Source: Polyangiaceae bacterium (GTDB taxonomy: Bacteria > Myxococcota_A > Polyangia > Polyangiales > Polyangiaceae). Taken from it: a stretch of DNA of 58,434 nt. Below the pieces are notes generated by a model. It made no database searches. It had not been told where the DNA came from and was given only the letters and a program-made list of their open reading frames with translations. Positions 9,894 through 36,598 of this stretch are shown here, in pieces. The position numbers and the translations under genes are program-made. Where the stretch lies: NCBI GenBank assembly GCA_022842465.1, contig JALHPN010000028.1, positions 1 through 58,434 of the forward strand. Direction: 5' to 3'. Each line of letters opens with the position of its first letter. Positions within the stretch are counted from its first letter, which is position 1.

Positions 9894-9926
9894 CGGACGC
9901 CGGCCGTTCCTCTAGAAGGAGCCGTG

Positions 9927-11270
9927 ATGTCCACGACGCTCTCGGCCGCGCGTGTCTCCTCCCTCCTCGCCGCGGCGGCGGCGGGCTCCGTCGCCACCCA
10001 CCGTGAAGCAGAAGGCGGAGGTCGACGCCCGCTCCACGTGCTCTACGGCGGCGCTCACCTCTTCAAGGCGGAGAGCCCGGCCAAGCTCGGCAAGCTCGCG
10101 CTCGCGGCGTTCGAGGCGCACGCGGGGGACGCGAGCACGTTCGGCAGCCTCGTCGGGCTCTCGCTGGACGACGTCGCGGACGAGCTCTTCGCGCGGGTGC
10201 GGGCCAAGCTGCACGAGGCGCCGATCGAGGCGATGTGCATCGACTTCGAGGACGGCTACGGCTGGCGCTCGGACGCCGAGGAGGACGCCGACGCCGTGCG
10301 CTCGGCCGAGGCGCTCGCCACCTCCGTCGCTGCCGGGGCGAGGCGCCCGACGATCGGGATGCGCATCAAGCCCCTCACGGCGGACTCGGGCGCGCGCGCT
10401 GCACGGACGCTCGACCTCTTCGTGACCGCGCTCCTCCGCGCGCGCGCGGGCGTCGTGCCGCCCGGCTTCACCGTCACGCTCCCGAAGGCGACGAGCACGG
10501 GAGAGGTCCTCGCCCTCGCCGCGATGCTCCAGGACCTCGAGGAGGCGCTCGGCGCGACGCCGGGCGCGATCGGGATGGAGCTGATGTTCGAGTCGCCCCT
10601 CGCGCTCGTCGCCGCCGACGGGTCCCACCCTGTCCGGCGCCTCGTCGAAGCGGGCGGAGCGCGCGTCGTCGCCGCCCATCTCGGCGCGTACGACCTCACC
10701 GCCTCGTGCGGAGTCGCAGCGCCGGACCAGCAGCTCGATCACCCGCTCTGCGATCAGGCGCGGACGATGATGCAGCTCACGCTGTCACCCCTCGATGTCG
10801 CGGTGGTCGACGGCGCGACGACCCAGCTGCCGCTCGCGCCGCATCGCGCGGCGCCCGGCGAGGCGCTCGGGACGACGGAGAAGCTCGAGAACGAGAACGC
10901 CGTCCGGGACGGGTGGCACCTCCACGCGCTGAACGTCCGGCGCGCCCTCGCCATGGGCATCCACGCGGGGTGGGATCTCCATCCCGCGCAGCTCCCCGCG
11001 CGCTGGGGCGCCGTGTTCGCCTTCTATCTCGAGGCGCGGGCGGCGATGACGGAGCGGCTCGCGCGCTTCGTCGAGCAGGCCACGAGGGCCACCCGCGTCG
11101 GCCAGGTGTTCGACGACGCGGCGACCGGCCAGGGGCTCCTCGTGTTCTTCCTCCGCGGCCTCGCGTGCGGCGCGTTCGACGCCTCGGACCTCGAGGCGAC
11201 GGGCCTCCGGAGGGAGGAGCTCGCGTCCCGCTCCTTCGCGAAGATCGTCGAGGCGCGGTCTTCGCGATGA
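9927..11270 (+). CDS. CitE/HpcH-fold protein, DUF6986-like; candidate ureide or glyoxylate enzyme
   Basis: A 447-residue soluble protein with the TIM-barrel pattern of the HpcH/HpaI aldolase-citrate lyase-malate synthase superfamily. IDFEDGYG lies at residues 105-112. A probable metal Glu sits in ELMFES (E222) and a probable metal Asp in GAYDLTAS (D256). GWDLHPAQLP near 348 is also conserved in the DUF6986 proteins I recall. The substrate is unknown. Its position next to HIU hydrolase, allantoicase and allantoinase suggests work on a ureide-derived C2 unit, for example glyoxylate condensation, or a ureidoglycolate lyase-like role, since no such lyase is visible here. AGAAGGA lies 6 nt before the ATG at 9927. 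Its stop overlaps the next gene by 4 nt (ATGA). Confidence 0.75.
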   Translation: MSTTLSAARVSSLLAAAAAGSVATHREAEGGGRRPLHVLYGGAHLFKAESPAKLGKLALAAFEAHAGDASTFGSLVGLSLDDVADELFARVRAKLHEAPIEAMCIDFEDGYGWRSDAEEDADAVRSAEALATSVAAGARRPTIGMRIKPLTADSGARAARTLDLFVTALLRARAGVVPPGFTVTLPKATSTGEVLALAAMLQDLEEALGATPGAIGMELMFESPLALVAADGSHPVRRLVEAGGARVVAAHLGAYDLTASCGVAAPDQQLDHPLCDQARTMMQLTLSPLDVAVVDGATTQLPLAPHRAAPGEALGTTEKLENENAVRDGWHLHALNVRRALAMGIHAGWDLHPAQLPARWGAVFAFYLEARAAMTERLARFVEQATRATRVGQVFDDAATGQGLLVFFLRGLACGAFDASDLEATGLRREELASRSFAKIVEARSSR

Positions 11271-12455: not shown

Positions 12456-12794
12456 TCAGCTTCCGCGGTACGTCGAGTAGCCGAACGGCGAGAGGAGGAG
12501 CGGCACGTGGTAGTGCGCCTCCGCGTCGCGCACGAGGAAGACGATCGCCGCCTCGGGGTAGAAGCCCTCGATCCCGAGGTCTCCGAAGTACGTGCTCGTG
12601 TCGAACGTGAGGCGATACGTCCCCGCCGTCAGCTGCCCTGACGGGACGAGATCCTTCACGCGGCCGTCGACGTCGGTGAGCGCGTGGCGAAGAGACGTGA
12701 AGGCATCGCCGTCCTTCCGCTCGAGGTGGACGGGGACGCCGTGCGCGGGCTTGCCCCGGGAGACGTCGAGGACGTGGGTGGAGATCGACTTCAT
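12456..12794 (-). CDS. hiuH: 5-hydroxyisourate hydrolase (transthyretin-like)
   Basis: A 112-residue protein of normal length for the family. It hydrolyses 5-hydroxyisourate to OHCU, the second step after urate oxidation. The N-terminal signature STHVLDVSRGKPAHGVPV carries the active-site His (H7), an Arg lies in the mid-region, and the chain ends in the family signature YRGS. There is no periplasmic leader, so the enzyme is cytoplasmic. Its ATG overlaps the stop of the upstream allantoicase/OHCU decarboxylase fusion by 4 nt, so HIU hydrolase and the next-step decarboxylase are translated from one message. Confidence 0.95.
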   Translation of the reverse strand: MKSISTHVLDVSRGKPAHGVPVHLERKDGDAFTSLRHALTDVDGRVKDLVPSGQLTAGTYRLTFDTSTYFGDLGIEGFYPEAAIVFLVRDAEAHYHVPLLLSPFGYSTYRGS

Positions 12795-14329
12795 CGCAGC
12801 ACCAGCTTCTCGAGGCGGAGGTTCGTGATCGCGAGCTGCTCGGCGGCCGCGCGGCGGAGCTCGGTCTCCGGGTCGCTCCCCATGCGCTCGCGCGCGATGG
12901 CGAGCATCTCCTCCGCCGTCTTCCCCGTCGCGCAGACGATGTAGATGCGCCCGAACTTCGCCTCGTAGTCCGCGTTCACGGCGCGGAGCTCGGCGAGGGT
13001 GGCTTCGCTCGCCTGGGAGACCTTCGCCTGCTCGCCGGCGCTCCACGACGCGGCGACCCGACTCTGCGCGGCCGCGGCCTTCGTCTCGCCGATCCGTGGA
13101 TGCGCGCGGAACGCCTCGTCCCAGTCCGCGGGCGCGAGGCTGTTCCACACGTCGGCGGCGCGCTCCTGCAGATCCGCCAGCGAGGCGAAGGAGCGCTCGT
13201 GCGTCATCGCAGACACCCAGGCGGTCGAGCCGCAGCAGGCGCGCATCGCGGACTCGAGCTCGGGCTCCGGCATCGCGCGGAGCGCGTACATGCCCGCGAG
13301 CTCGCGGCCGTGCTTCGTCACCTCTCCGTAGAGACGGAGCCGCGAGACGCCGCCGTCGGGCCAGATGCGCATGCGGACGTGCGTCGCCGGCATGCCGGCG
13401 CCCTTCTGTTCCGCCAGCTCCTCCTCGAAGACGTGCGCCGTGTGCGGCTGGAGCTTCGTGCGCGGGAGGAGCGGCACCCACGAGGCATCGCTCGCCCCGT
13501 CGGGGTCCGGCGCGCCGGGCGCCATGTGCGCGACCTCGATCGACGCGCTCTCGGGCGAGTTGCCCTTGAAGTGCGTCGTCTCGAGGACGGCGCGCTCGAT
13601 CGCCCCCTCCGCCGCGAGCCGGAGGACGACCCAGTCCGGCCCCGGGCGGCGGCTCCGCTTCGTCTCCCAGCCGTCGCCCATGTTGATGCCGCGCCCGGGC
13701 ATGACGAGGTTGTGGCGCGACCCGAAGAACATGTCGTTGCACGCGACGACGAGAGCGCCGTGCTCGGCGGCGGCGAGATCGACGAGCTGCGGCCGCGCGC
13801 GAGGTCCCATCCAGCGCAGATCGGGTAGCACCTCGCCGTGGACGCGGAGGCGCGCGACGCCGCCGTCCGGGTAGATGTGCAGCTTCAGATGCGTGAAGCG
13901 CTCGCGTGACGAGATCGAGAAGCGATTCTTCGAGTCGCCCTTCAGCTCCGACCGCGGGAGGATCTCCGTCCAGCGGACGGCATCGGAGGTGAGCGCGTCG
14001 ATGTCGGGATGGCCCGCGATGCTCGCGCCCTCGATCGCGCACGCCTGCGGGTAGTTCCCCTTGAAGTGCGCCGTGTCGACGACGACGCCGCGGAGGATGC
14101 CGGGGAGGCCGAGGCGGACGATGGCCCAGTCGTGGCCCGAGACACGCTTCCGGCGCGACTCCCAGCCGTCCATCCACTTGCCGCGATCGGTGTACTTCCC
14201 GGCGATGAAGACGGCCTCGTCCGCGTGCAGGAGGTTGTCCTTGCTGGCGAAAAAATCGTCGGTGGCGTAGAGGACGGACCCGCCGAGGCGCTCCGCGGCG
14301 AGGTCGACGAGCTCGAGGAAGTTCGACAT
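12791..14329 (-). CDS. Bifunctional allantoicase / OHCU decarboxylase fusion
   Basis: A 512-residue fusion. Residues 1-335 are allantoicase with its two repeated jelly-roll units: DDFFASKDNLL with DTAHFKGNYP, then NDMFFGSRHNLV with ETTHFKGNSP, each followed by a PDGGVxRLRxxGEV segment. Residues 345-512 are OHCU decarboxylase (UraD), with the signature AHPRIGE and the C-terminal ITNLRLEKL. Allantoicase splits allantoate to ureidoglycolate and urea; UraD makes S-allantoin from OHCU. These steps are not consecutive: allantoinase acts between them. A TACCCT hexamer (14344-14349) lies 14 nt before the ATG. HIU hydrolase follows with a 4-nt overlap. Confidence 0.93.
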   Translation of the reverse strand: MSNFLELVDLAAERLGGSVLYATDDFFASKDNLLHADEAVFIAGKYTDRGKWMDGWESRRKRVSGHDWAIVRLGLPGILRGVVVDTAHFKGNYPQACAIEGASIAGHPDIDALTSDAVRWTEILPRSELKGDSKNRFSISSRERFTHLKLHIYPDGGVARLRVHGEVLPDLRWMGPRARPQLVDLAAAEHGALVVACNDMFFGSRHNLVMPGRGINMGDGWETKRSRRPGPDWVVLRLAAEGAIERAVLETTHFKGNSPESASIEVAHMAPGAPDPDGASDASWVPLLPRTKLQPHTAHVFEEELAEQKGAGMPATHVRMRIWPDGGVSRLRLYGEVTKHGRELAGMYALRAMPEPELESAMRACCGSTAWVSAMTHERSFASLADLQERAADVWNSLAPADWDEAFRAHPRIGETKAAAAQSRVAASWSAGEQAKVSQASEATLAELRAVNADYEAKFGRIYIVCATGKTAEEMLAIARERMGSDPETELRRAAAEQLAITNLRLEKLVLR

Positions 14330-16949: not shown

Positions 16950-18314
16950 TCAGCGGCGTCTCACCCACGCGCCTCGACGCGACGATCCGAAAGGAGAAGC
17001 CGCCCCGCGCTCGTAGATCGTGTGCCCCCGCAAGATCGTGCGCCGGACGACGCCGTAGAGCACCCGGTCCTGGTACGGGGTGATCGGGTTCTTGTGCTCG
17101 AGGGTCTGCGCGTCGACGGAGAAGGTGGCCTCCGGGTCCCAGAAGACGAGGTCCGCGTCGTAGCCGACGCCGATCCGCCCCTTTCGCCCGGCGAGCCCGG
17201 CGAGCCGCGCCGGCGCTTCGCTCATCCAGCGCGCGAGCTCTGGGATCGATCCGCCGCGCCGCTTCGCCTCCGTCCATACCGCAGCGAGGCCGAGCTGGAG
17301 GGAGCTTATCCCGCCCCAGGCCTTCATGAAGTCCCCGGAGCCGGAGCACTTCAAGAGAACGGTCGACGGCGAGTGATCGGTGACGACCTGATCGATGAGC
17401 CCCTGCCGGAGCGCGTCCCAGAGCCTGTCCCGGTTCGACGCCTCGCGGATCGGGGGCGCGCACTTGAAGGCCGTCGCGCCGTCGGGGATCTCCTCGGCGG
17501 CGAACGTGAGATAGTGCGGGCAGGTCTCGACCGTGAGGAGCGTGTCCTCGTCGCGCGCGCGACGGAAGGTGTTGAGCGCGTCGGACGACGAGAGGTGCAC
17601 GACGTGCGCGCGGGCGCCCGTTTCCTTCGCGACGCGGAGGACGAGGTCGACGGCCGCGTCCTCGGCGCGACGGGGGCGGGACGCGAGGTACGTCGCGTAC
17701 GCGCGCGGATCGAGCCCGCGCGCGGCCTTCTCGCCGTCCGAGAGGGGGTCGGGGAGCTCCGCGTGGACGAAGAGGGGCGCGTCGATCTTCGCGAGCTCGC
17801 GCATCCCTTCGCGGAGCTCCTTCTCCTGCACGTGGCTGAACTCGTCGACGCCGCTCTCGGCGAGGAAGCACTTGAAGGCGACGACGCCCTCGCGGAAGAG
17901 CTCGGCGAGCCCGCGCGGGTTCGACGGGACGAGCCCTCCGCAGAGGGCGACGTCGATCGTCGCGCGCGCCTCGAGCGCATCGAGCTTCGCGCGGAGCCCC
18001 TCGAGGGTCGTCGTCGGAGGGATGCTGTTCAGAGGCATGTCGACGACCGTCGTGACGCCGCCCGCCGCCGCGGCGCGGGTCGCCGTCTCGAAGCCCTCCC
18101 ACGCATCGCGGCCCGGATCGTTGATGTGGACGTGGGTGTCGACGAGGCCGGGCAGGACGACGAGATCCGCCGCGTCGAGGACGGGGGACCCGGGAGGAAC
18201 GGCCTCGAGCCCGGTGACGGCCTGGATGACGCCGCCGGCGACGTGGACCGCGGCGGGGCGCTCGCCTTCGGGCGTGATGACGCGACGTCCGACGACGACG
18301 AGATCGATCGACAT
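16950..18314 (-). CDS. allB: Allantoinase
   Basis: A 454-residue cyclic amidohydrolase that opens S-allantoin to allantoate. The metal ligands are in DTHVHINDPG (HxH), the carboxylated Lys in AFKCFLAESG, then HAELP and HLSSSDALN, and the catalytic Asp in DHSPST. GFETATRAAAAGGVTT and MPLNSIPPT are typical of allantoinases and set them apart from dihydropyrimidinases. Length is normal. The start at 18314 is preceded at 8 nt by TACCCT (18323-18328) and has no Shine-Dalgarno sequence. The gene is divergent from the SsnA-like gene across only 81 bp, so the two promoters are close and may be co-controlled. Confidence 0.94.
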   Translation of the reverse strand: MSIDLVVVGRRVITPEGERPAAVHVAGGVIQAVTGLEAVPPGSPVLDAADLVVLPGLVDTHVHINDPGRDAWEGFETATRAAAAGGVTTVVDMPLNSIPPTTTLEGLRAKLDALEARATIDVALCGGLVPSNPRGLAELFREGVVAFKCFLAESGVDEFSHVQEKELREGMRELAKIDAPLFVHAELPDPLSDGEKAARGLDPRAYATYLASRPRRAEDAAVDLVLRVAKETGARAHVVHLSSSDALNTFRRARDEDTLLTVETCPHYLTFAAEEIPDGATAFKCAPPIREASNRDRLWDALRQGLIDQVVTDHSPSTVLLKCSGSGDFMKAWGGISSLQLGLAAVWTEAKRRGGSIPELARWMSEAPARLAGLAGRKGRIGVGYDADLVFWDPEATFSVDAQTLEHKNPITPYQDRVLYGVVRRTILRGHTIYERGAASPFGSSRRGAWVRRR

Positions 18315-18322
18315 GAGACGGC

Positions 18323-18328
18323 AGGGTA
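18323..18328 (-). promoter_or_regulatory. Candidate -10 element (TACCCT) for allantoinase
   Basis: TACCCT on the minus strand ends 8 nt before the ATG at 18314 in the 81-bp divergent region shared with the SsnA-like gene. No Shine-Dalgarno sequence is seen. Confidence 0.35.
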
Positions 18329-18382
18329 CCGCGGGGAACGCGGACAACGTGCCTAGAAGTCGGCTCTCCCGGGCGAGCGGCT

Positions 18383-18388
18383 TATACT
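18383..18388 (+). promoter_or_regulatory. Candidate -10 element (TATACT), leaderless start of the SsnA-like gene
   Basis: TATACT is close to the consensus -10 and ends 7 nt before the ATG at 18396. The -35 region is poor, which may mean an activator is needed. It lies back to back with the allantoinase element, 54 bp apart. Confidence 0.45.
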
Positions 18389-18395
18389 CGGGGCG

Positions 18396-19763
18396 ATGAA
18401 ATCGTCCGAGAGCACGCTCCGATCGGCCGCGCCGGCCATCGACGACGTGCTCTCGTCGCGGGCGGCGGGGATCGTCGTCCTCGCGGGCGGCACGCTCGCC
18501 GAGCTCCACCCTGCGCGGATGGGGCAGGCCGACATCGTCGTGAAGAACGACGTCATCGCCCAGGTCGGCGGGACGGTCCCCGAGTCCCTCCCCCGCGTCG
18601 ACGTGACGGGCTGCATCGTGACGCCCGCGTTCGTCGTCGCCCACACGCACCTCTACATGACGCTCGCCGCGGGGATGCCGCCGCCCGCGACACCTCCCCG
18701 GACGCTCACCGATCACCTCCAGTGGGTGTGGTGGGCGCTCGACAAGGCGCTCGACGACGACCTCGTCCAGACCTCCGCCCTCGTCGGGGCGGCGATGGCG
18801 GCGAAGGCAGGTGCGTGCTGCGTCGTCGATCTCCACTCCTCGCCGCGTGCGATCGAGGGCTCGCTCGATCGCATCGCGTCGGCCCTCGACGAGGTCGGGC
18901 TCCGCGGGGTCCTCTCCTACGAGACGAGCGATCGCGACGGCAAGGGCCGGCGCGACGGCGGGCTCCGCGAGAACCGGCGCTTCCTCGACAAGGTGCGCGC
19001 GAAGACGACGCGGCACCGCGCGCTCGTCGGCGCCCACGCCCTGATGACGTTGAACGACGACACGCTCGACGGGCTCCGTGAGCTCGCCGACGCATACGAC
19101 GCCGGGCTCCACGTCCACGCGGCAGAGGACGGGACGGACGAGGTCGACGCGATCAAGACGAGGAAGTCCACCCTCCTCGCGCGGCTCGATCGGCTCGGGC
19201 TCGCGCGGCGGGGATCGGTCGCCGCCCACGGCGTGCATCTCCCGTCCGTCTACGTCGACCAGCTCGTCCAGGCCGGAGGGTTCGTCGCGACGTGCCCCCG
19301 CTCGAACATGGCGCACGGCGTCGGCCTGTTCGGCGGCGGCGGCGCGCGCATCGCGCTGGGGACCGACGGGCTCGATCACGACGTGCTCGCCGAGGCCCGC
19401 GCGTACGCCCTCCGTCACGCCGAAGCGCGAGACAACCTCGCCCGCGAGACGGGCGCGCGCATCGTGGCCGGTCAAGAGCTCGCCGCGATGGCCTTCGAGG
19501 AGACGGTCCCGCGCAAGCTCCAGGTGGGAGCGCGCGCCGACCTCGTCGTGCTGGAGTACGCGGGGGCGACCCCGTCCAGCCCGTCGAACCTGCTCGACCA
19601 CGTCGCGCGCGGCTGGACGAGCGGCCACGTGCGGGACACGATGGTGGCCGGTCAGTTCGTGGTGCGCGATCGAAAGCTCGTGAACGTCGACGAGCGCGAG
19701 CTCCTCCCGCGAGCTCGCGCCGCCGCCGGTCGGCTCTGGGAGAGGGTGCAGGGGTATACGTGA
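18396..19763 (+). CDS. ssnA: SsnA-type amidohydrolase
   Basis: A 455-residue metal-dependent amidohydrolase. It matches the E. coli SsnA family along its length: AELHPAR near the start, metal-binding AHTHLY, DLHSSPRAIEGSL (SsnA has DHHASPxxIGGSL), YETSDRDG, HVHAAEDG, AAHGVHL, CPRSNMAHGVG and the metal Asp in GTDGLDHD. The HxH, His, His and Asp ligands all appear present, so the enzyme should be active. SsnA belongs to a purine-degradation gene cluster in enterobacteria and gut anaerobes; its exact substrate there is not something I can state. Here it accompanies an aerobic urate route. Its stop overlaps the ATG of the kinase gene (TGATG), giving tight coupling. Confidence 0.87.
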   Translation: MKSSESTLRSAAPAIDDVLSSRAAGIVVLAGGTLAELHPARMGQADIVVKNDVIAQVGGTVPESLPRVDVTGCIVTPAFVVAHTHLYMTLAAGMPPPATPPRTLTDHLQWVWWALDKALDDDLVQTSALVGAAMAAKAGACCVVDLHSSPRAIEGSLDRIASALDEVGLRGVLSYETSDRDGKGRRDGGLRENRRFLDKVRAKTTRHRALVGAHALMTLNDDTLDGLRELADAYDAGLHVHAAEDGTDEVDAIKTRKSTLLARLDRLGLARRGSVAAHGVHLPSVYVDQLVQAGGFVATCPRSNMAHGVGLFGGGGARIALGTDGLDHDVLAEARAYALRHAEARDNLARETGARIVAGQELAAMAFEETVPRKLQVGARADLVVLEYAGATPSSPSNLLDHVARGWTSGHVRDTMVAGQFVVRDRKLVNVDERELLPRARAAAGRLWERVQGYT

Positions 19764-21541
19764 TGGTGGCCGCACGGTTGTTCAAGCCCGGCGAGAGCGT
19801 GCCCGGCACGAAGTACCGCGTCGTGCGGCAGCTCGGCGCCGGCGGCATGGGCGTCGTCTACCAGGTGACGAAGCCCCCGCAGATCGGCGGCGTCCTCAAG
19901 CTCATGGCCGCCGACCTCGCCGTCCACGAGGAGTTCCGCACGCGGTTCTTCGACGAGGTGCGCGTGCTCGCGCAGCTCGACCACCCGAACATCGTGCGCG
20001 TCTTTGACTACGACGCGCTCTCGGACGGGACCCCCTACTACGTCATGGAGATGCTCCACGGGAGCACCGTGCGGGACGTGCTCGGCAAGGTCTCACGCAT
20101 GCCCCCGCGGGTGGCCTTCGAGGTGACGCGCCAGCTCCTCGAGGCGCTCCACTGCGCGCACACGAACGTCATCCCCGTCGTGCACCGGGACATCAAGCCC
20201 GAGAACATCTTTCTCCACGCGCCGCGCCACGGTGAGCCGGTCGTCAAGCTGATCGACTTCGGCGTCGTCGCGATCGCGGACCGCGACCACGACGGGACGT
20301 TCGTCGGGACCTGGAAGTACGCGGCGCCAGAGCAGATCCGCGGGGAGCAGGCGACGCCGGCGACCGATCTCTACGCCGTCGGCCTCGTGCTGTACGAGAT
20401 GCTCGCAGGCGCAGGGCCGTTCGATCACTACGAGACGGGGCCCGCGGTCGCGACAGCGCACGTCCGCGAGACGCCCGCGCCCGTGAGCGGGCTCGCGCCG
20501 TGGGTGCCGGCGTCGATCGTCGCGCTCATCGCCTCGGCGCTCGCGAAGGATCCGAAGCAGCGCCCGAAGGACGCGTACGCGTTCGCGGAGAAGCTCTTCG
20601 AGCTCGAGTGGGCGAGCGACGGCAACGATCCGCACGACGCGACGAAGGAGGGGCCGGTCGGGCCGCTCCAGCGGGTGCTCACGGACGTCGGCGGCCTCGA
20701 GGTCAGCGGCGAGCGTGCGTCGGGGGGCAAGATCGCGGCGGCCGCGGTGCCGGAGTCGGCGAAGCACAAGGGCAGGACGATCGTGGGTGTGGGCGAGGGC
20801 GGGCGGCACGAGCCGACGAGCCCCGACGACGACGCGCTCCTCGCCGGGCTCCTCGCGCGCGAGCAGGTCGGCGCGGGTGGCGGAGGGATGTCGCGGAAGG
20901 CACGCGAGTCGGATCCCAATGGCGTGGGGGGGCCCACGCCGACGCCGCCGAGCGGACAGATCGTGATCCGGCCGTCGCCGAGCGCACCCGAGGTCGTGGT
21001 GGAGAAGCCGCGGCCTTCGGCGCACGACGCCGTGACGATGGACGCGCCGCCGAGCGATCCGCGGCTGCCGACGAGCGCGAAGAAGGTCGACACCGACACG
21101 TTCGCGGCGTCGGAGACGGACGCCGGGCGGAAGGCGAAGAAGAGGGACAAGGCCGACGCCTTCGGCCGCATCGGGCTTCCGGCCCTCGTGATGGCCGCGG
21201 CCTCGGCGGTGGCGTTCGTCGTCGTGCTGATGGTGATGCGACGGCCCGCGACGGACGTGACGGGACCAGGGCCCCTGCCGGTGATGAAGACGGAGGCGCT
21301 CGGGGCAGAGCCGCCACCGGTCGCCTCGGCCGGGATCCCGACGACGACGGGGGCGCCGGAGGGCAAGCCCGCGGTGATCACGGAGTCGACCGCGAAGCCG
21401 AAGCCGGCAGCGCGGCCTCCAGGCGCCGGCGCGATGAAGCCGACGGCGGCCCCGGCGGTGCCGTCGGCGACGGCGCCGGCTCCCCACGCGGCGCCGGCGG
21501 CCTCGAGCGCGACGCGGCCGGATCTCATCCGGAACCTCTGA
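19763..21541 (+). CDS. Membrane Ser/Thr protein kinase embedded in the purine island
   Basis: A 592-residue Hanks-type kinase. The kinase domain spans about residues 18-285: GAGGMGVVY, HRDIKPENIF, DFGVVAIAD and AAPEQ. The usual VAxK Lys appears as GGVLKLMA. A Pro/Gly-rich linker leads to one membrane helix at about 470-490 (LVMAAASAVAFVVVLMVM), then a 100-residue Pro/Ala/Thr-rich outer tail without a folded sensor domain. It starts inside the stop of ssnA (TGATG), and the AtoE-type transporter starts 1 nt after its stop. The three therefore form one operon, and control of ureide catabolism or transport by phosphorylation is plausible but unproven. Confidence 0.9.
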   Translation: MVAARLFKPGESVPGTKYRVVRQLGAGGMGVVYQVTKPPQIGGVLKLMAADLAVHEEFRTRFFDEVRVLAQLDHPNIVRVFDYDALSDGTPYYVMEMLHGSTVRDVLGKVSRMPPRVAFEVTRQLLEALHCAHTNVIPVVHRDIKPENIFLHAPRHGEPVVKLIDFGVVAIADRDHDGTFVGTWKYAAPEQIRGEQATPATDLYAVGLVLYEMLAGAGPFDHYETGPAVATAHVRETPAPVSGLAPWVPASIVALIASALAKDPKQRPKDAYAFAEKLFELEWASDGNDPHDATKEGPVGPLQRVLTDVGGLEVSGERASGGKIAAAAVPESAKHKGRTIVGVGEGGRHEPTSPDDDALLAGLLAREQVGAGGGGMSRKARESDPNGVGGPTPTPPSGQIVIRPSPSAPEVVVEKPRPSAHDAVTMDAPPSDPRLPTSAKKVDTDTFAASETDAGRKAKKRDKADAFGRIGLPALVMAAASAVAFVVVLMVMRRPATDVTGPGPLPVMKTEALGAEPPPVASAGIPTTTGAPEGKPAVITESTAKPKPAARPPGAGAMKPTAAPAVPSATAPAPHAAPAASSATRPDLIRNL

Positions 21542-21542
21542 G

Positions 21543-23039
21543 ATGTCGGGAGCGGATCTCCCGAGCTCGCTCGGCGGCGGGGCGAGGCCCCCGACCGAGA
21601 CGGAGATCGAGCCCGACGCCTCGTTCCTCGCGCGGGTGGCAGCGCGGTTCACGCGCTGGGCCGAGCGCTGGATCCCGGACGCGTTCGTGTTCGCGCTCGT
21701 CGCCACGTTCCTCGTCGTCCTCGCTTCGATCGTGAGCCTGTCGACGAAGCGCGGCGTGGGCGCGGCGGCGGTCGAGACGGTGACCATCTGGGGCGGCGGC
21801 TTCTGGGAGCTCCTCCCCTTCACGCTCCAGATGGCGCTCGTGATCATCACCGGGTACGTGGTCGCGACGACGCGCCCCGTCTACCGCGTGATCGCGCGGC
21901 TCGCGTCGGTGCCTTCGTCGCCGCGGGCAGCGATCGCGATGGTGGCGCTCTTCGCGATGGCATCCTCGTGGCTCAACTGGGGGTTCAGCCTCATCTTCAG
22001 CGCGATGCTCGCGAAGGAGGTCGCGCGGCGAACCTCGGGCGTCGACTATCGCGCGGTCGCGGCGAGCGCGTTCCTCGGGCTCGGGAGCATCTGGGCCCAG
22101 GGGCTGTCGGGATCGGCCGCCCTCCAGATGGCGACGCCGTCCGCGCTGCAGCCCGGCGTCCGCGCGATCGTCGACGGCGGAGGGCAGGTGCCGGGCGGCA
22201 TCATCCCGCTCTCGCGGACGATCTTCCTCTGGCAGAGCCTCGTCAGCGTGGGGGTCGAGATCGTGGTCGTGACGGCGCTCGTCTACGCCTATGCGCCCCC
22301 CGCGTCGCGCGCGCGGACGGCCGAGGCGATGGGGATCGATCTCGGGACCTCGCCGCTCGACGCGGAGGCGCCGGCAAGGCGCGGGACGCCGGGCGAGTGG
22401 CTCGAGCACGTGCCGATCCTCAACGTCCTCTTCGTGCTCCTCGCCGGGGGGTACTTGCTGACGTACTTCACGAAGAGCGGTCAAGGGCTGGATGCCCTGA
22501 ACCTCAACACCGTGAACCTCGTCTTCCTCACGGTCGGCGTCGCGCTCCACGGGACGCCGGCGCGGCTCATGCGGGCTGTGAAGGAGGCGACGCCGGGGGT
22601 CTGGGGCGTCCTCCTCCAGTTCCCGTTCTACGCGGGCATCGCGGCGCTCGTCGTGAAGACGCACCTGAACGAGGTGATCGCCGGGTGGTTCGTGTCGGTG
22701 TCCACGAAGGCGTCGTTCCCCGCCGTCATCGCCGTCTACTCCGCGGTCCTCGGCGTGTTCGTGCCGAGCGGCGGCTCGAAGTGGGTGATCGAGGCCCCGT
22801 ACGTGATGCAGGCGGCCCACGATCTGAGGGTGCATCTGGGGTGGATGGTCGCGGTCTACGACCTCGGCGAGGCGCTCGCGAACCTGCTCCAGCCCTTCTG
22901 GATGCTGCCGATCCTGGGTCTGTTCGGGCTCCGCGCGCGGGACGTGATGGGCTACACGTTCCTCGTCTTCCTCGTGCTCGCGCCGGTCGTGCTGGTCCTC
23001 GTGACCGTCCTCGGCGCCACGTTGCCCTATCCGCTCTGA
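21543..23039 (+). CDS. AtoE-family (short-chain fatty acid type) transporter
   Basis: A 498-residue polytopic membrane protein with about 10-12 hydrophobic segments. It carries features of the AtoE/TIGR00366 family: RWIPDAFVFALVATF, FTLQMALVIITGYVVA, ASSWLNWGFSLIFSAMLAKE and FVPSGGSKWVIEAPY near the C-terminus. Named members move short-chain fatty acids in step with protons. The true substrate here could differ: the gene directly follows ssnA and a kinase gene in a purine island and no purine permease is visible, so a ureide or carboxylate substrate is possible. Translation is probably coupled to the kinase gene. Confidence 0.85.
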   Translation: MSGADLPSSLGGGARPPTETEIEPDASFLARVAARFTRWAERWIPDAFVFALVATFLVVLASIVSLSTKRGVGAAAVETVTIWGGGFWELLPFTLQMALVIITGYVVATTRPVYRVIARLASVPSSPRAAIAMVALFAMASSWLNWGFSLIFSAMLAKEVARRTSGVDYRAVAASAFLGLGSIWAQGLSGSAALQMATPSALQPGVRAIVDGGGQVPGGIIPLSRTIFLWQSLVSVGVEIVVVTALVYAYAPPASRARTAEAMGIDLGTSPLDAEAPARRGTPGEWLEHVPILNVLFVLLAGGYLLTYFTKSGQGLDALNLNTVNLVFLTVGVALHGTPARLMRAVKEATPGVWGVLLQFPFYAGIAALVVKTHLNEVIAGWFVSVSTKASFPAVIAVYSAVLGVFVPSGGSKWVIEAPYVMQAAHDLRVHLGWMVAVYDLGEALANLLQPFWMLPILGLFGLRARDVMGYTFLVFLVLAPVVLVLVTVLGATLPYPL

Positions 23040-26347: not shown

Positions 26348-27556
26348 TCACTCCGCCTTCGCGCCTGCCTCGATCCAGCGCTTCAGCACGCTGCGCTCGG
26401 CGTCCGTGATCTGCGTGGCGTTGTTCAAGGGCATGTTCCGCAGCACCACGGCCTGCTGGTAGACGCTCTGCGCGTTCTTCTGGGCGAGCTCGGGGGTGTG
26501 GAGGGCGATGCCCTTGTTCTGCACGAGCGCGCCGTGGCAGATGACGCAGCGCTGCTCGAAGACCGCCTTGGCTTCGGCGTACGTCGCCGGGCCGGTCGGG
26601 CCGACGGCGGCTCCGGACGACGTCGGGGCGAGCGCGCCCACCAGGACCAGCACGAGCGCCGTGCCCGCGCCGGCGAACTCCCACGGGACGCGCCGGCCCT
26701 CCACCAGCGCCTTGTGGCGCGCGACGAAGCTGTGGCGGATGAGGGCGCCGGCGAGCATCAGGACCGAGAGGACCAGCCAGTTCCAGCGGCCTTGGTAGAG
26801 CCAGCCGTAGTGGTTGGAGAGCATCGCGATCAAGACCGGCAGCGTGAAGTATGTATTATGCACACTTCGCTGTTTCGCGCGCTGCCCGTGGATGGCCTCC
26901 ACCGGCTGGCCCGCCTTCAGCTGCGCGACGACCTTGCGCTGGCCCGGGATGATCCAGAAAAAGACGTTCGCGCTCATCGAGGTCGCGAGCATCGCGCCGA
27001 GGAGGAGGAACGCGGCGCGCCCCGCGAAGAGCTGACACGCGCCCCACGCGGCGACGATGACGAAGACGAGCACGACGGCGCCGACCCTGGCGTCACCGCC
27101 GACCTTGCCGTCCTTCTCGCCGAGCACGCGGCAGATGCGGTCGTAGAGGAGCCAGAACGCGACGAGGAACCCGAGCGCAGCCGCGATCGCGGCGCCTGGC
27201 GACCAGTCGTGCACCGTCGTGTCGACGAGGAACGTGCTCGCGTTGAAGAGGTAGAGGACGGTGAAGAGCGCGAAGCCCGAGAGCCACGTCGAGTAGCTCT
27301 CCCAGTAGAACCAGTGGAGGTGCTCCGGCAGCCGCTTCGGCGAGACCAGGTACTTCTGGGGGTGGTAGAAGCCGCCGCCGTGGACGGCCCAGAGCTCGCC
27401 GTCGACGCCCTTCGCCTGGAGATCAGGATCCGTCGGCTTCGTCAGGCTCGAGTCGAGGAAGACGAAGTAGAACGAGGACCCGATCCACGCGATCGCCGTG
27501 ATGACGTGCGTCCATCGCAGGAGCAGGTTGGCCCAATCGAAAAGGTACGCGTGCAT
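26348..27556 (-). CDS. puuD: Membrane urate hydroxylase with cytochrome c domain
   Basis: A 402-residue protein of PuuD layout. Residues 1-310 form a polytopic membrane domain with about eight helices and the family stretches LLLRWTHVITAIAWIGSSFY, GGGFYHPQKY, LHWFYWESYSTW and HNTYFTLPVL. A C-terminal cytochrome c domain carries the haem site CVICH at about 337-341 and an axial Met probably in LRNMPLNN. PuuD-type enzymes oxidise urate to 5-hydroxyisourate and pass electrons to the respiratory chain rather than making H2O2. The product feeds HIU hydrolase in this window. It lies 15 nt downstream of the H1-like gene on the same strand, so both are probably in one operon. Confidence 0.93.
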   Translation of the reverse strand: MHAYLFDWANLLLRWTHVITAIAWIGSSFYFVFLDSSLTKPTDPDLQAKGVDGELWAVHGGGFYHPQKYLVSPKRLPEHLHWFYWESYSTWLSGFALFTVLYLFNASTFLVDTTVHDWSPGAAIAAALGFLVAFWLLYDRICRVLGEKDGKVGGDARVGAVVLVFVIVAAWGACQLFAGRAAFLLLGAMLATSMSANVFFWIIPGQRKVVAQLKAGQPVEAIHGQRAKQRSVHNTYFTLPVLIAMLSNHYGWLYQGRWNWLVLSVLMLAGALIRHSFVARHKALVEGRRVPWEFAGAGTALVLVLVGALAPTSSGAAVGPTGPATYAEAKAVFEQRCVICHGALVQNKGIALHTPELAQKNAQSVYQQAVVLRNMPLNNATQITDAERSVLKRWIEAGAKAE

Positions 27557-28903: not shown

Positions 28904-28972
28904 CAAAGGCCACCTTGCGCCCGACGACAAGCGATTCCCCTCGCCGCGCTTCCCGGCTACCCCTCGTAGGGC

Positions 28973-31866: not shown

Positions 31867-34800
31867 CTACTCCGCGGCGCGTGAGGCCGGCGCACGCGCC
31901 TCGCGGGACACGCGCGCCTTCACGGCCGCGCGGATCGCCTCGTGGGTGGCCGGCGACGCGAGGCTCACCTCGCCCCCCGGCGCGCCGAAGGCGGCGACCG
32001 CATCGCGAATGGCCTCGCGCACGCTGATCGCGAGCATCAGCGGCGGCTCACCGACCGCCTTGGATCCGTGGATGACGCCGTCCTGCGCCGCGCCCGCGAG
32101 GAGCGCGACGTTGAAGACCAGAGGCGCATCGCCGAGGGTCGGGATCTGGTACGTGCTCGCGGAGTGCGTGAGGAGCCTCCCGTCCGCGTTCCAGCGGAGC
32201 TCCTCGGCCGTGAGCCAGCCCATGCCCTGCACGAACGCGCCCTCGATCTGCCCGCGATCGATGCCCGCGTTGAGGGACTCGCCGACGTCGTGCAGGACGT
32301 CGACGCGGCGGACGCGCTTCATCCCGGTGAGGCCGTCGACCTCGACCTCGCTCACCGCCGCCCCGTACGCGAAGTAGTAGAAGGGCTTCCCCTTCCCCTT
32401 CGCCTTGTCGTAGCCGATGCCCGGCGTGCGGTAGTAGCCCGTCGCCGAGAGCTGCACCTGCTTCATGTACGCGCGGTCGACGACGCGCTCGAAGGGCACC
32501 TCGAAGCCAGGCGCCTGCGGCGCGCGCGCGACGCCGCGCTCGAAGACGACGGCGCCCTCCGGGATCGTCACCGACGACTCCGCTTCCAGGATCTCCGCCG
32601 CGATCGGCGCGAGCCGCTCCCGGAGCTGCACGCAGGCCGCGCGGACGGCCGCCCCGTTGAGGTCCGACCCGCTCGACGCCGCCGTCGCCGACGTGTTCGG
32701 CACCTTGTCGGTCTGGGTCTTCATCACGCGGACGACGTCCGCCGTGACGCCGAGCTCGCGCATCGCGACGCCGAGCACCTTCGTGTAGAGCCCCTGCCCC
32801 ATCTCGGTGCCGCCGTGGTTCACCTGCACCGAGCCGTCGCGGTAGACGAGGACGAGCGCGCCCGCCTGGTTCAGCCAGGTCGCCGTGAAGGAGATCCCGA
32901 ACTTCACCGGCGTCATCGCGAGCCCGCGCTTCACCCACGCGCTCTTCGTGTTGAAGGCCGCGATCTCCTCGCGGCGCGCCGCGAGCGCCGCCTGGCTCGC
33001 GAGCTCGGTCCAGATGCGCGGGATGCGCTCGTCGCCGAGCTCCTGCCCGTAGTGGGTGGTGTTCGTCTCGCCGGCGCCTCGGTAGAGGTTCCGCTCGCGG
33101 ACGGTCTCGGGCAGAACACCGAGGCGGCGCGCGATGCGATCGAGGATGTCCTCGATGACGACCATGCCCTGCGGCCCGCCGAAGCCGCGGAAGGCCGTGT
33201 GCGAGACGACGTTCGTCTTCGCGACGCGGCCGGAGACCTCCACCGCGGGGAGGTAGTACGCGTTGTCGATGTGGAAGAGCGCGCGGTCGCAGATCGACTC
33301 GGAGAGATCGAGCGCCCAACCGCCGTCGGAGACGAGCTCCGCGCGCAGCGCCGTCACGCGGCCGTCGTCGTCGAAGGCGACCTCCCAGCGCGCGAAGAAC
33401 GGATGGCGCTTGCCCGTGAGCTCCATGTCGACGTCGCGGTCGAGCTGCACGCGCACGGGCCTCCGCGTCAGGTGCGACGCGAGCGCGACGATCGCCGCCC
33501 AGCCGTTGCCCTGCGTCTCCTTCCCGCCGAAGCCGCCGCCCATCCGCGGCGCCTGGACGACGACCTTGTGGCGCGGCACGTCGAGCACGTGCGCGACGAC
33601 GGCCTGCACCTCGCTCGGGTGCTGGGTCGAGGACGTGACGAACACTTCGCCGTCCTCCCCTGCCTCCGCCCAGGCCGCCTGCGCCTCGAGGTAGAAGTGC
33701 TCCTGGCCGCCGATGTCGAGCTCGCCCGAGAGCCGGTGCGCGGCGCCGGAGAGGGCCGCCGCCACGTCGCCGCGCCGGATCACGTGCGGCTGGGTGTGGA
33801 AGCTCCCCTTCGCGATCGCGTCGCGGATCCCGAGGACGGGGTCGAGCCTCTCGTAGGTGACGGCCACCATCTTCGCGGCCGCCCGCGCGGCGTCGATCGA
33901 CGTCGCGACGACGACCGCGACGATGTGACCGTGGAAGCTCGCCTCGCCGTCGGTGAAGAGCGTCTCGTCGTGGCGCACGGCGCCGACGTCGTTCATGCCG
34001 GGCACGTCCTTCGCGGTGAGGACGCGGACGACCCCCGGCATCGCGAGCGCCGCCGCCGCGTCGATCGCGACGACGCGCGCGCGCGCGTGCGGGCTCGTGA
34101 CGGGCCAGAGGTCGAGCATGTCCCTCCGGCGCGCGACGTCGTCGACGTAGAGCGCGCCGCCGGTGACGTGCCCCTTCGCGCTCTCGTGCGAGAGCCCTTT
34201 CCCGTGATCGGCGCGCGCGTCCCACGCAGGGGCGGTCTCGAAGGCGATCGTCCCGTCCTCGGCCTCGCTCGTCACGCCGCGCGTGAACTTGTCGAAGAGG
34301 CTGACGACGAGGTCTTTCCGGTAGTCCTTGCCGGAGCGCTGGTCGTCGATCGGCGCGAACTCACCGGCGAGGAGCTCGCGCGCGCCCGACCACGTCGCCT
34401 CGCTCCACGGCTTCCCGACGAGGAACGCCTCCGTCTTCTTCGCACGGGACGGCATCGCCGCGACGCCGCCGTACGCGAGCCGGGCGTGGGTGACGACGTC
34501 GCTCGCGTCGGTGTCGACGACGAAGGCCGCGGCGGTGATGCTGATGTCGAGCTCCCGGCGCTTCGACACCTTGAAGGAGTCCATCCGGCGCCGCGCGCTC
34601 GCGGTGCTCCGCGGGAAGACCACCCACCGGACGATCTCGTCGGGCGCGAGCACCGTCTTCCGGTAGCCGACGAAGAAGTCCGCGAGCGGCACGGTGCGCG
34701 AGCTGCCCGTCTTCTCGAGGACCACCTCCGCGTCGAGCGCGAGCATGACGGGCGGCATGTCCCCGATCGGCGACGCGGTGACGAGGTTCCCGGCGAGTGT

Positions 34801-35703
34801 CGCGCGGTTCCGGATCTGGCGCGACGCGAACGCCCAGAGCATCTTGTCGATCATCGGGTACTCGCCGCCGAGCGCCTCCTCGAGCGCGGTCAACGTGGCC
34901 CCCCCGCCGACCTTCCACAGGCGGTCGTCCTTCACGATCGACGCGAGCTCGGAGACCCCCTCGGTCGAGACGAGGAGCGGGTAGCGCCGGAAGCTCTTGT
35001 TCACGTAGACGCCGATCTCGGTCGCGCCGCCGACGAGCTCCGCCTCGGCACCGTGCATCGCCTTGAGGGCGAGGAGCTCGGCGAGCGTCGTCGGACGGAG
35101 GAAGCGCTGGCCGCCGCCGTCGTACGCGACGGCCAGAGGGGCGGGGCGGCCCTCCTTTCCGAGACGGAGCTGGAACAGGTCCTCGCCCCTCCGCCGCTTT
35201 CGCGCCGCGAGCGCGTCGAGCATCGCCTCCCGGATGGGGCGGTAGCCCGTGCAGCGGCAGAGGTTACCGTTCAGCTGATCGCCGATCTTCGCGCGCACGT
35301 CGGCCGCCGCCTCGTCGACGTCCGTCCGGTAGTAGGCCTCGAACATCGAGACCACGAACCCTGGCGTGCAGAAGCCGCACTGCGAGCCGTAGCGCGCGAT
35401 CATCGCCTCCTGGACGGGGTGGAGCTTGCCGTCCTGGGCGAGGCCCTCCACGGTCACGATCTCCCGACCGGCGACCATCGGGAGGAGCGTGATGCAGCTG
35501 TTCACGGCGCGGTACGTCGTCTCGCCGCGGGCGTTCACGTCGACGAGCGCGACCGTGCAGGCCCCGCAGTCCCCCTCTGCGCAGCCCTCCTTCGTCCCCG
35601 TCCGCCCCGTCGCGCGGAGCCACGCGAGGAGGGTGGTATTCGCCGAGACGGCCTCGACGCGGACGGTCTGCCCGTCGACGACGAGCTCGAAGGAGGACGA
35701 CAT
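31867..35703 (-). CDS. xdh: Single-chain xanthine dehydrogenase
   Basis: A 1278-residue molybdo-flavoprotein that oxidises hypoxanthine and xanthine to urate. The N-terminal [2Fe-2S] ligands are C41, C46, C49 and C70. The second cluster has CGFCTPGF and CRCTGYRP (to about residue 150). A FAD domain follows (AELVGGATEIGV; ATLAGNLVTASPIGDMPP). The Mo-cofactor domain has GGGFGGKE, AFRGFGGPQG and the catalytic Glu E1219 in KAVGEPPLMLA. Most bacterial enzymes are split into XdhA and XdhB; here all domains are one chain, as in eukaryotic XDH. Stop and length look intact. It follows xdhC by 28 nt on the same strand. Confidence 0.95.
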   Translation of the reverse strand: MSSSFELVVDGQTVRVEAVSANTTLLAWLRATGRTGTKEGCAEGDCGACTVALVDVNARGETTYRAVNSCITLLPMVAGREIVTVEGLAQDGKLHPVQEAMIARYGSQCGFCTPGFVVSMFEAYYRTDVDEAAADVRAKIGDQLNGNLCRCTGYRPIREAMLDALAARKRRRGEDLFQLRLGKEGRPAPLAVAYDGGGQRFLRPTTLAELLALKAMHGAEAELVGGATEIGVYVNKSFRRYPLLVSTEGVSELASIVKDDRLWKVGGGATLTALEEALGGEYPMIDKMLWAFASRQIRNRATLAGNLVTASPIGDMPPVMLALDAEVVLEKTGSSRTVPLADFFVGYRKTVLAPDEIVRWVVFPRSTASARRRMDSFKVSKRRELDISITAAAFVVDTDASDVVTHARLAYGGVAAMPSRAKKTEAFLVGKPWSEATWSGARELLAGEFAPIDDQRSGKDYRKDLVVSLFDKFTRGVTSEAEDGTIAFETAPAWDARADHGKGLSHESAKGHVTGGALYVDDVARRRDMLDLWPVTSPHARARVVAIDAAAALAMPGVVRVLTAKDVPGMNDVGAVRHDETLFTDGEASFHGHIVAVVVATSIDAARAAAKMVAVTYERLDPVLGIRDAIAKGSFHTQPHVIRRGDVAAALSGAAHRLSGELDIGGQEHFYLEAQAAWAEAGEDGEVFVTSSTQHPSEVQAVVAHVLDVPRHKVVVQAPRMGGGFGGKETQGNGWAAIVALASHLTRRPVRVQLDRDVDMELTGKRHPFFARWEVAFDDDGRVTALRAELVSDGGWALDLSESICDRALFHIDNAYYLPAVEVSGRVAKTNVVSHTAFRGFGGPQGMVVIEDILDRIARRLGVLPETVRERNLYRGAGETNTTHYGQELGDERIPRIWTELASQAALAARREEIAAFNTKSAWVKRGLAMTPVKFGISFTATWLNQAGALVLVYRDGSVQVNHGGTEMGQGLYTKVLGVAMRELGVTADVVRVMKTQTDKVPNTSATAASSGSDLNGAAVRAACVQLRERLAPIAAEILEAESSVTIPEGAVVFERGVARAPQAPGFEVPFERVVDRAYMKQVQLSATGYYRTPGIGYDKAKGKGKPFYYFAYGAAVSEVEVDGLTGMKRVRRVDVLHDVGESLNAGIDRGQIEGAFVQGMGWLTAEELRWNADGRLLTHSASTYQIPTLGDAPLVFNVALLAGAAQDGVIHGSKAVGEPPLMLAISVREAIRDAVAAFGAPGGEVSLASPATHEAIRAAVKARVSREARAPASRAAE

Positions 35704-35731: not shown

Positions 35732-36598
35732 TCACTCCGGCGCGAGGCCCTTCCGGAAGGCGACCATCTCAGCGGCGATCGCGATGGCGATCTCGGCCGG
35801 GGCGCGGGCGCCGATGTCGAGCCCGAGCGGCATGCGGACGCGCGCCCGGTCCGCCTCCGCGAAGCCCTTCGCTTCGAGCCGCTGCCGGGTGCGCTCCGCC
35901 TTCGCGCGGCTCCCGACGCCGCCGACGAAGGCGAAGCCACGGCGGAGCGCCCACTCGATGACCGCCTGGTCGAGCGCGTGGTCGTGGGTCATGACGAGGC
36001 AGGCGCCATGAACGCCGACGTCGCGTCCGCCCTCGTCGACGTCGGCGGCGATCGCGCGGACTCCGGGCGTCCCCTCCAGCCGCTCGGCCCAGGCCTCCCG
36101 CGCGTCGACGACCGTGACGGCGAAGCCGAGCCCGCCGAGCAGGGGGGCGAGGGCCGCGCCGACGTGGCCTGCGCCGACGACGAGGCACGGCGTGCGGACG
36201 GCGAGCGGCTCGAGGAGCACGTCGAGGCGCCCCCCGCAGCACATGCCGAGCTCGGCGCCGAGCTTGAAGGTCCGCACCTCGTGCGGCGTCGTCGCCGCGT
36301 TTCGCGCGAGAAACCCTTTCAGGGCGGAGAGCACTTCCCGCTCGACCGCGCCGCCCCCCACCGTCCCAAGGGCCGTCCCGTCGGCGGCGAGGAGCAGCTT
36401 CTGGCCGGGCGTTCCGGGCGCCGATCCGTGGCGAGCGAGCACCGTCGCCATGGCCGCGACCGTCCCGCGCTCGATGCAGGTCGCGGCGGCGCGGAGCACG
36501 CGTGCCGCATCCGCCGCCTCGGGGACCGCAAGCTCGTCCGCGCGCACGGGCTGCGGCACGAGCGCGAGGGGCGGGGGCGACGTGTCCGAGCGAGGCAT
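35732..36598 (-). CDS. xdhC: XdhC, molybdenum-cofactor insertion/maturation factor
   Basis: A 288-residue XdhC/CoxI-family protein. The N-terminal domain has ARHGSAPGTPGQKLL and GTVGGGAVEREV, then the signature GMCCGGRLDVLLEPL. A Rossmann segment CLVVGAGHVGAALAPLLGGLGF follows. XdhC binds the Mo cofactor, helps add its sulfido ligand and inserts it into xanthine dehydrogenase. It is the first gene of the xdhC-xdh operon. TAGAAT on the minus strand (36608-36613) lies 9 nt before the ATG. Confidence 0.93.
   Translation of the reverse strand: MPRSDTSPPPLALVPQPVRADELAVPEAADAARVLRAAATCIERGTVAAMATVLARHGSAPGTPGQKLLLAADGTALGTVGGGAVEREVLSALKGFLARNAATTPHEVRTFKLGAELGMCCGGRLDVLLEPLAVRTPCLVVGAGHVGAALAPLLGGLGFAVTVVDAREAWAERLEGTPGVRAIAADVDEGGRDVGVHGACLVMTHDHALDQAVIEWALRRGFAFVGGVGSRAKAERTRQRLEAKGFAEADRARVRMPLGLDIGARAPAEIAIAIAAEMVAFRKGLAPE

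Follow-up and report, generated by a model that had tools for sequence, protein, structure and literature searches.

An SsnA-derived amidohydrolase gene beside allantoinase in the predicted oxidative urate cluster of a Labilithrix-type genus

The stretch of DNA analysed here (the window; 58,434 nucleotides of a Polyangiaceae bacterium genome that comprises 9.57 Mb in 431 contigs) carries an SsnA-like gene among genes for aerobic urate breakdown. The genes concerned, their neighbours and the gap between the two divergent start codons are as follows.

9924..11270, plus strand: DUF6986 protein; in 15 of the 20 further genomes of the order that were examined, a homologue lies close to HIU hydrolase
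12456..12788 (also given as 12462-12785), minus strand: HIU hydrolase HiuH, over the TIGR02962 cut-off; start codon not fixed
12791..14329, minus strand: allantoicase-UraD (OHCU decarboxylase) fusion, by profile search
16950..18314, minus strand: allantoinase AllB, TIGR03178 558.7 bits (cut-off 357.85)
18315..18395, no strand: divergent intergenic gap of 81 bp between the start codons of the SsnA-like gene and AllB
18396..19763, plus strand: SsnA-derived amidohydrolase of 455 aa, by ORF translation, profile scores, alignment and tree
19763..21541, plus strand: Ser/Thr protein kinase, whose start codon shares bases with the stop codon of the SsnA-like gene (TGATG)
21543-23039, plus strand: short-chain fatty acid transporter-type gene (PF02667), 1 base past the kinase
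26348..27556, minus strand: PuuD-type urate oxidase (PF06181)
31867..35703, minus strand: fused xanthine dehydrogenase XDH, over the TIGR02965 and TIGR02963 cut-offs
35732..36598, minus strand: XdhC-like maturation factor, TIGR02964 153.9 bits, below the cut-off of 161.6

Profile searches show that the aerobic route from urate to ureidoglycolate is complete in the window (XDH, PuuD, HiuH, the allantoicase-UraD fusion and AllB), as an earlier note made from the letters of this DNA had claimed; its description of a full-length SsnA with all apparent metal ligands, 81 bp from a divergent allantoinase, also holds as to the gene itself: the frame is free of internal stops, and the aligned protein has the full catalytic six (H83, H85, H241, E244, H278 and D324). 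A scan of positions 18200-18500, around the gap, returned zero sigma-70-like promoter or terminator matches, and no known RNA family reached its gathering threshold within the window. PuuD, which lies beyond the kinase and transporter genes, shares only 35-43% identity with its counterparts in five relatives in the genus, as against about 61-76% for the other cluster proteins.

The window shares PuuD, HiuH, allantoicase-UraD, AllB, XDH and DUF6986 with the oxidative urate cluster of the order, and differs from it in the SsnA-like gene: among 20 aerobic clusters in other genomes of the order (picked for HiuH; 12-20 kb examined, E 1e-6), none had an SsnA or a deaminase homologue, whereas allantoicase-UraD or a UraD part was present in 20, AllB in 19 and DUF6986 in 15. 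The allantoicase and UraD halves, fused or separate, were matched in 18 of the 20. Because DUF6986 adjoins aerobic urate genes here, in 15 of those 20 genomes and in one further genome of the genus (G119), it likely serves a step in, or after, ureidoglycolate handling.

The 455-aa protein is matched best by the two SsnA models in an NCBIfam profile search (PRK07203 at 320.8 bits, TIGR03314 at 304.8 bits; the third-best family reaches only 128.6 bits), and stays under both curated cut-offs (444 for PRK07203/NF005540 and 455.5 for TIGR03314); E. coli SsnA, the control, scores 710 and 738 bits. Such a score does not by itself exclude SsnA, since L048 and L049, SsnA rows from the same family but other genera, likewise fall below with 337-380 bits. 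A maximum-likelihood tree of 80 proteins, including 46 SsnA rows and 17 rows of the clade to which the window protein belongs, with 200 bootstrap trees, unites SsnA and the clade on a 100/100 branch, apart from guanine and 5'-deoxyadenosine-type deaminases; this is the phylogeny that the earlier note had proposed as a check, and it bears out the family. The clade's 17 rows form a 100/100 branch of their own, whose stem measures 0.93 substitutions per column. This branch is nested among the SsnA rows: SsnA without the clade was monophyletic in 0% of the 200 bootstrap trees, although this nesting does not follow from the strongly supported branches alone, and E. coli SsnA is a long branch. The tree and the first residue counts leave out 22 locus rows, mostly second copies and some of them short or badly framed, among them the sole rows of four genomes (G022, G078, G127 and G330).

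Judged by its sequence, the protein bears the name SsnA at family level only: the tree upholds the naming in the earlier note, and the two missed cut-offs do not. Copies from the genus are 62-71% identical to it, while other relatives in the phylum (377 genomes sampled) are at most 45% identical and the other 75 SsnA loci among the matches listed (80 of 580) at most 43%. Genes more than 45% identical are confined to the Labilithrix-type genus among the 377 phylum genomes sampled and the 12 genomes of the genus. Five clade loci among the listed 80 of 580 are the same DNA as five of the genus loci, and so not independent; DNA matching assigns those five relatives to 2 Labilithrix sp. and 3 Myxococcales bacterium MAGs.

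SsnA itself was left without a described role in this setting by the earlier note. Its function was published in 2025: according to the available portion of that report, SsnA hydrolyses YgfK-reduced yanthine to ureidomethylhydantoin as the major and 5-ureidodihydrouracil as the minor product (PMC12507026). The hydantoinase HyuA then opens the ureidomethylhydantoin ring, as stated in the accessible parts of two papers (PMC12507026; PMC12990295). From these two products we deduce that, in the SsnA reaction, water attacks a non-aromatic bicyclic purine at its amidine-like C4. What stands of the earlier note's claim is the aerobic setting: a search of a limited literature collection found no published description of an SsnA-like gene in an aerobic urate cluster.

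We compared residues in sets reduced at 97% identity, which took the clade from 128 to 122 rows and canonical SsnA from 121 to 119; the clade set represents the closest relatives, the best 120 of 3485 in the homologue listing. Most of the listed clade proteins depart from SsnA at four positions that SsnA conserves: position 88 is S/G/A in 119 of 119 SsnA and M/L in 117 of 122 clade proteins; position 146 is H in 119 of 119 and L in 71 of 122, with H kept in 49; position 299 is H/Q/E in 114 of 119 and T in 116 of 122; and position 307 is N in 117 of 119 and H in 110 of 122. The window protein has M88, L146, T299 and H307. Y87, W112, W113, D116, H147, S149, R180, H214, A215 and N304, found across SsnA, are retained. 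Positions 114 and 217 had seemed switched against 46 SsnA; against 119 the residues overlap, and neither is counted.

A predicted structure (mean pLDDT 79.6, from 26 close sequences) puts positions 146 and 299 at the ends of barrel strands 140-147 and 296-299, and positions 88 and 307 just after strands 79-84 and 296-299, although pLDDT is below 50 at 305-308, which includes 307, and at 327-345. In the model, the metal and catalytic residues sit at these same strand ends.

The neighbours of this fold are purine-nucleoside and heterocycle deaminases, in search listings that contain no solved SsnA structure, though absence from them does not count against a family. They lend some support to a purine-base deaminase (of guanine, 8-oxoguanine or isoguanine) that would feed xanthine or urate into the cluster, and so does the fact that no genus genome of eight had a guanine deaminase over the TIGR02967 cut-off (at most 11 candidates per genome scored), which leaves the entry of guanine unexplained. 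Against this, the window protein scores 55.9 bits on the guanine deaminase model TIGR02967 (cut-off 375.4) and 98.3 bits on the 8-oxoguanine deaminase model PRK08203 (cut-off 532). Guanine deaminases share the amidohydrolase fold and, in the alignment, the metal and catalytic pattern, but they split off at 100/100 in the tree; 10 aligned deaminases all have Gln88 and P-R-F at 213-215, where the clade mostly has M/L and A-H-A, and the window protein, with M88 and A213-H214-A215, is without the residues of the deaminase HxHxxQ and P-R-F motifs. G119 moreover lacks the SsnA-like gene and has no guanine deaminase over the cut-off, and the 20 aerobic clusters of the order hold no deaminase homologue. 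A role in place of guanine deaminase was rejected as the lead reading on residues, model scores and distribution, and we regard a deaminase of this kind as unlikely. A second homologue in the same genome (L062, 9439-10776, plus strand) was also tried as the guanine deaminase and set aside: it is of the 5'-deoxyadenosine deaminase type, just below the cut-off for that family (516 of 522 bits), and proteins like it are likely the source of many sub-cut-off guanine deaminase matches across the order.

The genes around SsnA homologues were typed by tblastn (E 1e-10) with reductive markers (YgeW, YgeX, YgeY, YqeA, HyuA, the N-terminal part of YgfK, and best hits of xdhA/xdhD type) and aerobic markers (HiuH, Alc-UraD, PuuD, and AllB only at 45% identity or more, so that AllB-type matches of 33-34% at L050 and L051 fall outside the count); XDH was not counted as aerobic, and some canonical SsnA genes (L135, L168, L181 and L190) have a fused XDH of the window's type next to them. 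Aerobic markers were found at eight of eight clade loci, in addition to the window, and reductive markers at none. At other SsnA loci of the Myxococcota the counts were 28 of 47 with reductive markers, 0 of 47 with aerobic ones and 19 with neither, and at the remaining SsnA loci among the matches listed (80 of 580) they were 49 of 75, 0 of 75 and 26. Pooled, and among the matches listed, 77 of 122 loci outside the genus carry reductive markers and 0 of 122 carry HiuH, Alc-UraD, PuuD or AllB; at least two genomes occur in both sets, and some of the 45 loci with neither kind of marker sit on short contigs. Co-occurrence with urate genes, which the earlier note had proposed to survey, is thus a feature of the genus (AllB adjoins the gene in eight of nine carriers) and was seen at none of the 122 listed loci outside it. 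Canonical SsnA is less frequent in the order among genomes with HIU hydrolase (3 of 16) than among others (58 of 123; p 0.035), a weak trend with kinship ignored, and for that reason given no weight here.

In place of the YgfK-XdhD-HyuA-YgeW neighbours of SsnA (E. coli b2879, TIGR03314/PRK07203), the SsnA-like gene has AllB, Alc/UraD and HiuH. As both the residues conserved in SsnA and the reductive context were looked for and proved to be altered or missing, we do not file the gene under SsnA proper; by sequence, it represents an SsnA-derived lineage. The earlier note had suggested that the combination could be a hybrid of the reductive and oxidative routes. A true SsnA would then act on dihydro-yanthine made by another reductase, with AllB and allantoicase in the places of HyuA and YgeW/YgeY; AllB is a hydantoinase-type enzyme, and ureidomethylhydantoin and allantoin are one CH2 apart. 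Chloroflexota have a different putative reductase, according to the sections available of the 2025 report (PMC12507026). However, YgfK (TIGR03315) and YgeX (TIGR01747) were over their cut-offs in none of the 12 genus genomes in profile searches that returned one of 14 control genomes each, E. coli being among the positives (the YgfK search scored no more than 31 candidates in a genome, out of as many as 51, and its listed matches start at about residue 400). With four conserved SsnA positions switched and reductive markers at none of the eight clade loci in addition, the hybrid route is weakened and appears very improbable.

The SsnA-like gene is carried by 9 of the 12 genus genomes, and AllB directly adjoins it in eight of these nine, divergently in seven and in the same direction in one (G146); in the ninth (G144) the two are separated by 1.8 kb, which may contain a 525-aa frame. 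Because of these eight direct adjacencies and the short distance in G144, the pairing of the two genes is more than chance, and its conservation across the species of the genus makes the SsnA-like gene a putative member of the predicted oxidative urate cluster. G146 splits off before all other members of the genus in a tree built from three cluster proteins; in its genome the SsnA-like gene (1008-2402), AllB (from 2423), Alc-UraD and HiuH share one direction, and the first gap is 20 bases. In two of the genomes without the gene (G026 and G055), neither HIU hydrolase nor allantoicase is matched either. G119, the third, encodes DUF6986, PuuD, HiuH, Alc-UraD and AllB, and its kinase stands directly beside AllB; since it is nested among the carriers in the same tree, G119 apparently lost the SsnA-like gene.

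A homologue of the kinase adjoins the SsnA-like gene on the side opposite AllB in eight of the nine carriers, in seven of them co-directionally, so that the linkage is not to AllB alone; the neighbourhood listings omit kinase, histidine-kinase and response-regulator matches, some surveys omit two further queries, and the survey of the 20 order loci did show Ser/Thr kinase matches. The gene could accordingly travel with the kinase, or have landed in the cluster by chance, and serve a function unrelated to purines; the overlap of stop and start codons in the window and the missing gene in G119 fit such an incidental neighbourhood. But the kinase of G119 adjoins AllB even without the SsnA-like gene, the gene of G100 keeps AllB with no kinase adjoining, and that of G146, where the kinase is oriented the other way, faces off from the kinase and reads into AllB. 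As the protein also groups with a urate-pathway family in the tree, we consider an incidental neighbourhood quite unlikely.

The catalytic six are complete in 119 of 119 canonical SsnA proteins and in 98 of 122 clade proteins among the matches listed, including the window copy and that of G146. The other 24 listed clade proteins miss at least one catalytic residue (Fisher p 3.5e-8 against 0 of 119, with relatedness ignored): Gln replaces the beta-6 His at position 278 in 18, and seven have lost a metal ligand, with an overlap of one. Six of the seven ligand losses are at H241, one of these also at D324, and one is at H85. Metagenomic rows may carry sequence errors; Gln278 is nonetheless found in four genus genomes (G100, G125, G130 and G145), of which G100 combines it with a lost metal ligand. 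On the tree, the erosion needs six changes for each label; on well-supported branches alone, the minimum is four for Gln278 and six for ligand loss.

Erosion of this kind would be expected if the protein were mainly non-enzymatic, partnering AllB or another cluster enzyme in a structural or regulatory role; inactive dihydroorotase-type subunits exist in other systems. The presence of AllB beside or close to the gene in nine of nine carriers would suit a partner as well, and so would the rates of change. For the four closest pairs of copies dN/dS is 0.15-0.17 for the SsnA-like gene and 0.11-0.15 for AllB, and for the next two, more distant pairs it is 0.27 and 0.34 for the SsnA-like gene. Because three of the four low-dN/dS pairs join Gln278 copies (0.152-0.165, near the 0.167 of the His278 pair), the coding sequences indicate that the protein is under constraint after the Gln278 change. 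On the other side, all 122 listed clade proteins retain H83 and E244, 121 retain D324, and the full catalytic set persists in 98 of the 122, the early-branching G146 among them. The doubly changed copy of G100 also evolves faster relative to AllB (mean ratio 2.00, against 1.12-1.68 in the other genomes and 1.52 over all pairs), as expected if catalysis mattered. A mainly non-enzymatic role is therefore possible but, in our view, improbable.

The reading we tentatively favour, on sequence and gene order, is that the protein is an SsnA-family accessory hydrolase recruited into the oxidative cluster, where it would act on a dearomatised urate-derived intermediate or by-product. Its first part, that a predicted metal-dependent amidohydrolase was recruited from the reductive pathway into the genus's predicted oxidative urate cluster and retooled there, we hold to be very probable. 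By analogy with SsnA, the candidate substrate of the retooled protein is a non-aromatic compound formed in the oxidative route, be it 5-hydroxyisourate, OHCU or something that either decays to. Water would be added at an amidine-like carbon, the resulting hydantoin or ureide could be used or disposed of by AllB and allantoicase, and the switched positions 88, 146, 299 and 307 may accommodate the new substrate. The same chemistry on oxidised urate derivatives appears the simplest assumption because the known reductase was not found, the cluster makes non-aromatic derivatives and AllB opens hydantoins; this naming of a substrate class, which draws on the analogy, is a more doubtful part of the reading.

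An accessory task may be, for example, the removal of escape products from unstable intermediates. Unstable urate-derived intermediates decay non-enzymatically, according to the accessible part of one source (PMC5270733). We take the role to be accessory and dispensable because catalytic residues erode in several lineages and G119 apparently lost the gene; given erosion in 24 of 122 listed clade proteins, a dispensable or a non-catalytic role fits equally well. The steps from 5-hydroxyisourate, OHCU and allantoin are already served by HiuH, UraD, AllB and allantoicase encoded here, and since each named intermediate has its own enzyme, no gap in the pathway calls for the SsnA-like protein. A stand-in role for a missing HIU hydrolase was dropped, since HiuH is encoded at 12462-12785. 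The possible side branch acting on another ureide, the second suggestion of the earlier note, comes close to the accessory hydrolase. A bolder version, in which an enzyme of an oxygen-free pathway was rebuilt as a new hydrolase of a dearomatised intermediate (5-hydroxyisourate, OHCU or an escape product) and performs a step absent from the textbook route, seems to us rather unlikely.

According to the available part of one paper, the enzymes of the oxidative and the reductive urate pathway are completely different (PMC12990295); a rebuilt hydrolase, if that version were true, would link the two pathways. The SsnA family is used as a marker of reductive clusters in the accessible text of the 2025 study (PMC12507026). 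Because a member of this family is here linked to oxidative genes, an SsnA match is no proof of anaerobic uricolysis, and aerobic uricolysis may include an undescribed hydrolytic step, or a non-catalytic role for this protein. The question is directly testable, as nature supplies copies whose catalytic residues are complete, partly eroded or absent.

Two further features were seen elsewhere in the window. Between PuuD and a hybrid histidine kinase, an open frame at 27572-30385 contains at about 27572-28950 (minus strand) long lysine/alanine-rich repeats that end it in the manner of a histone H1-type tail. At 50618-52144 (plus strand) lies an fvmX7 domain protein (FtsH ternary system, PF20005), which is possibly part of a conflict-type system.
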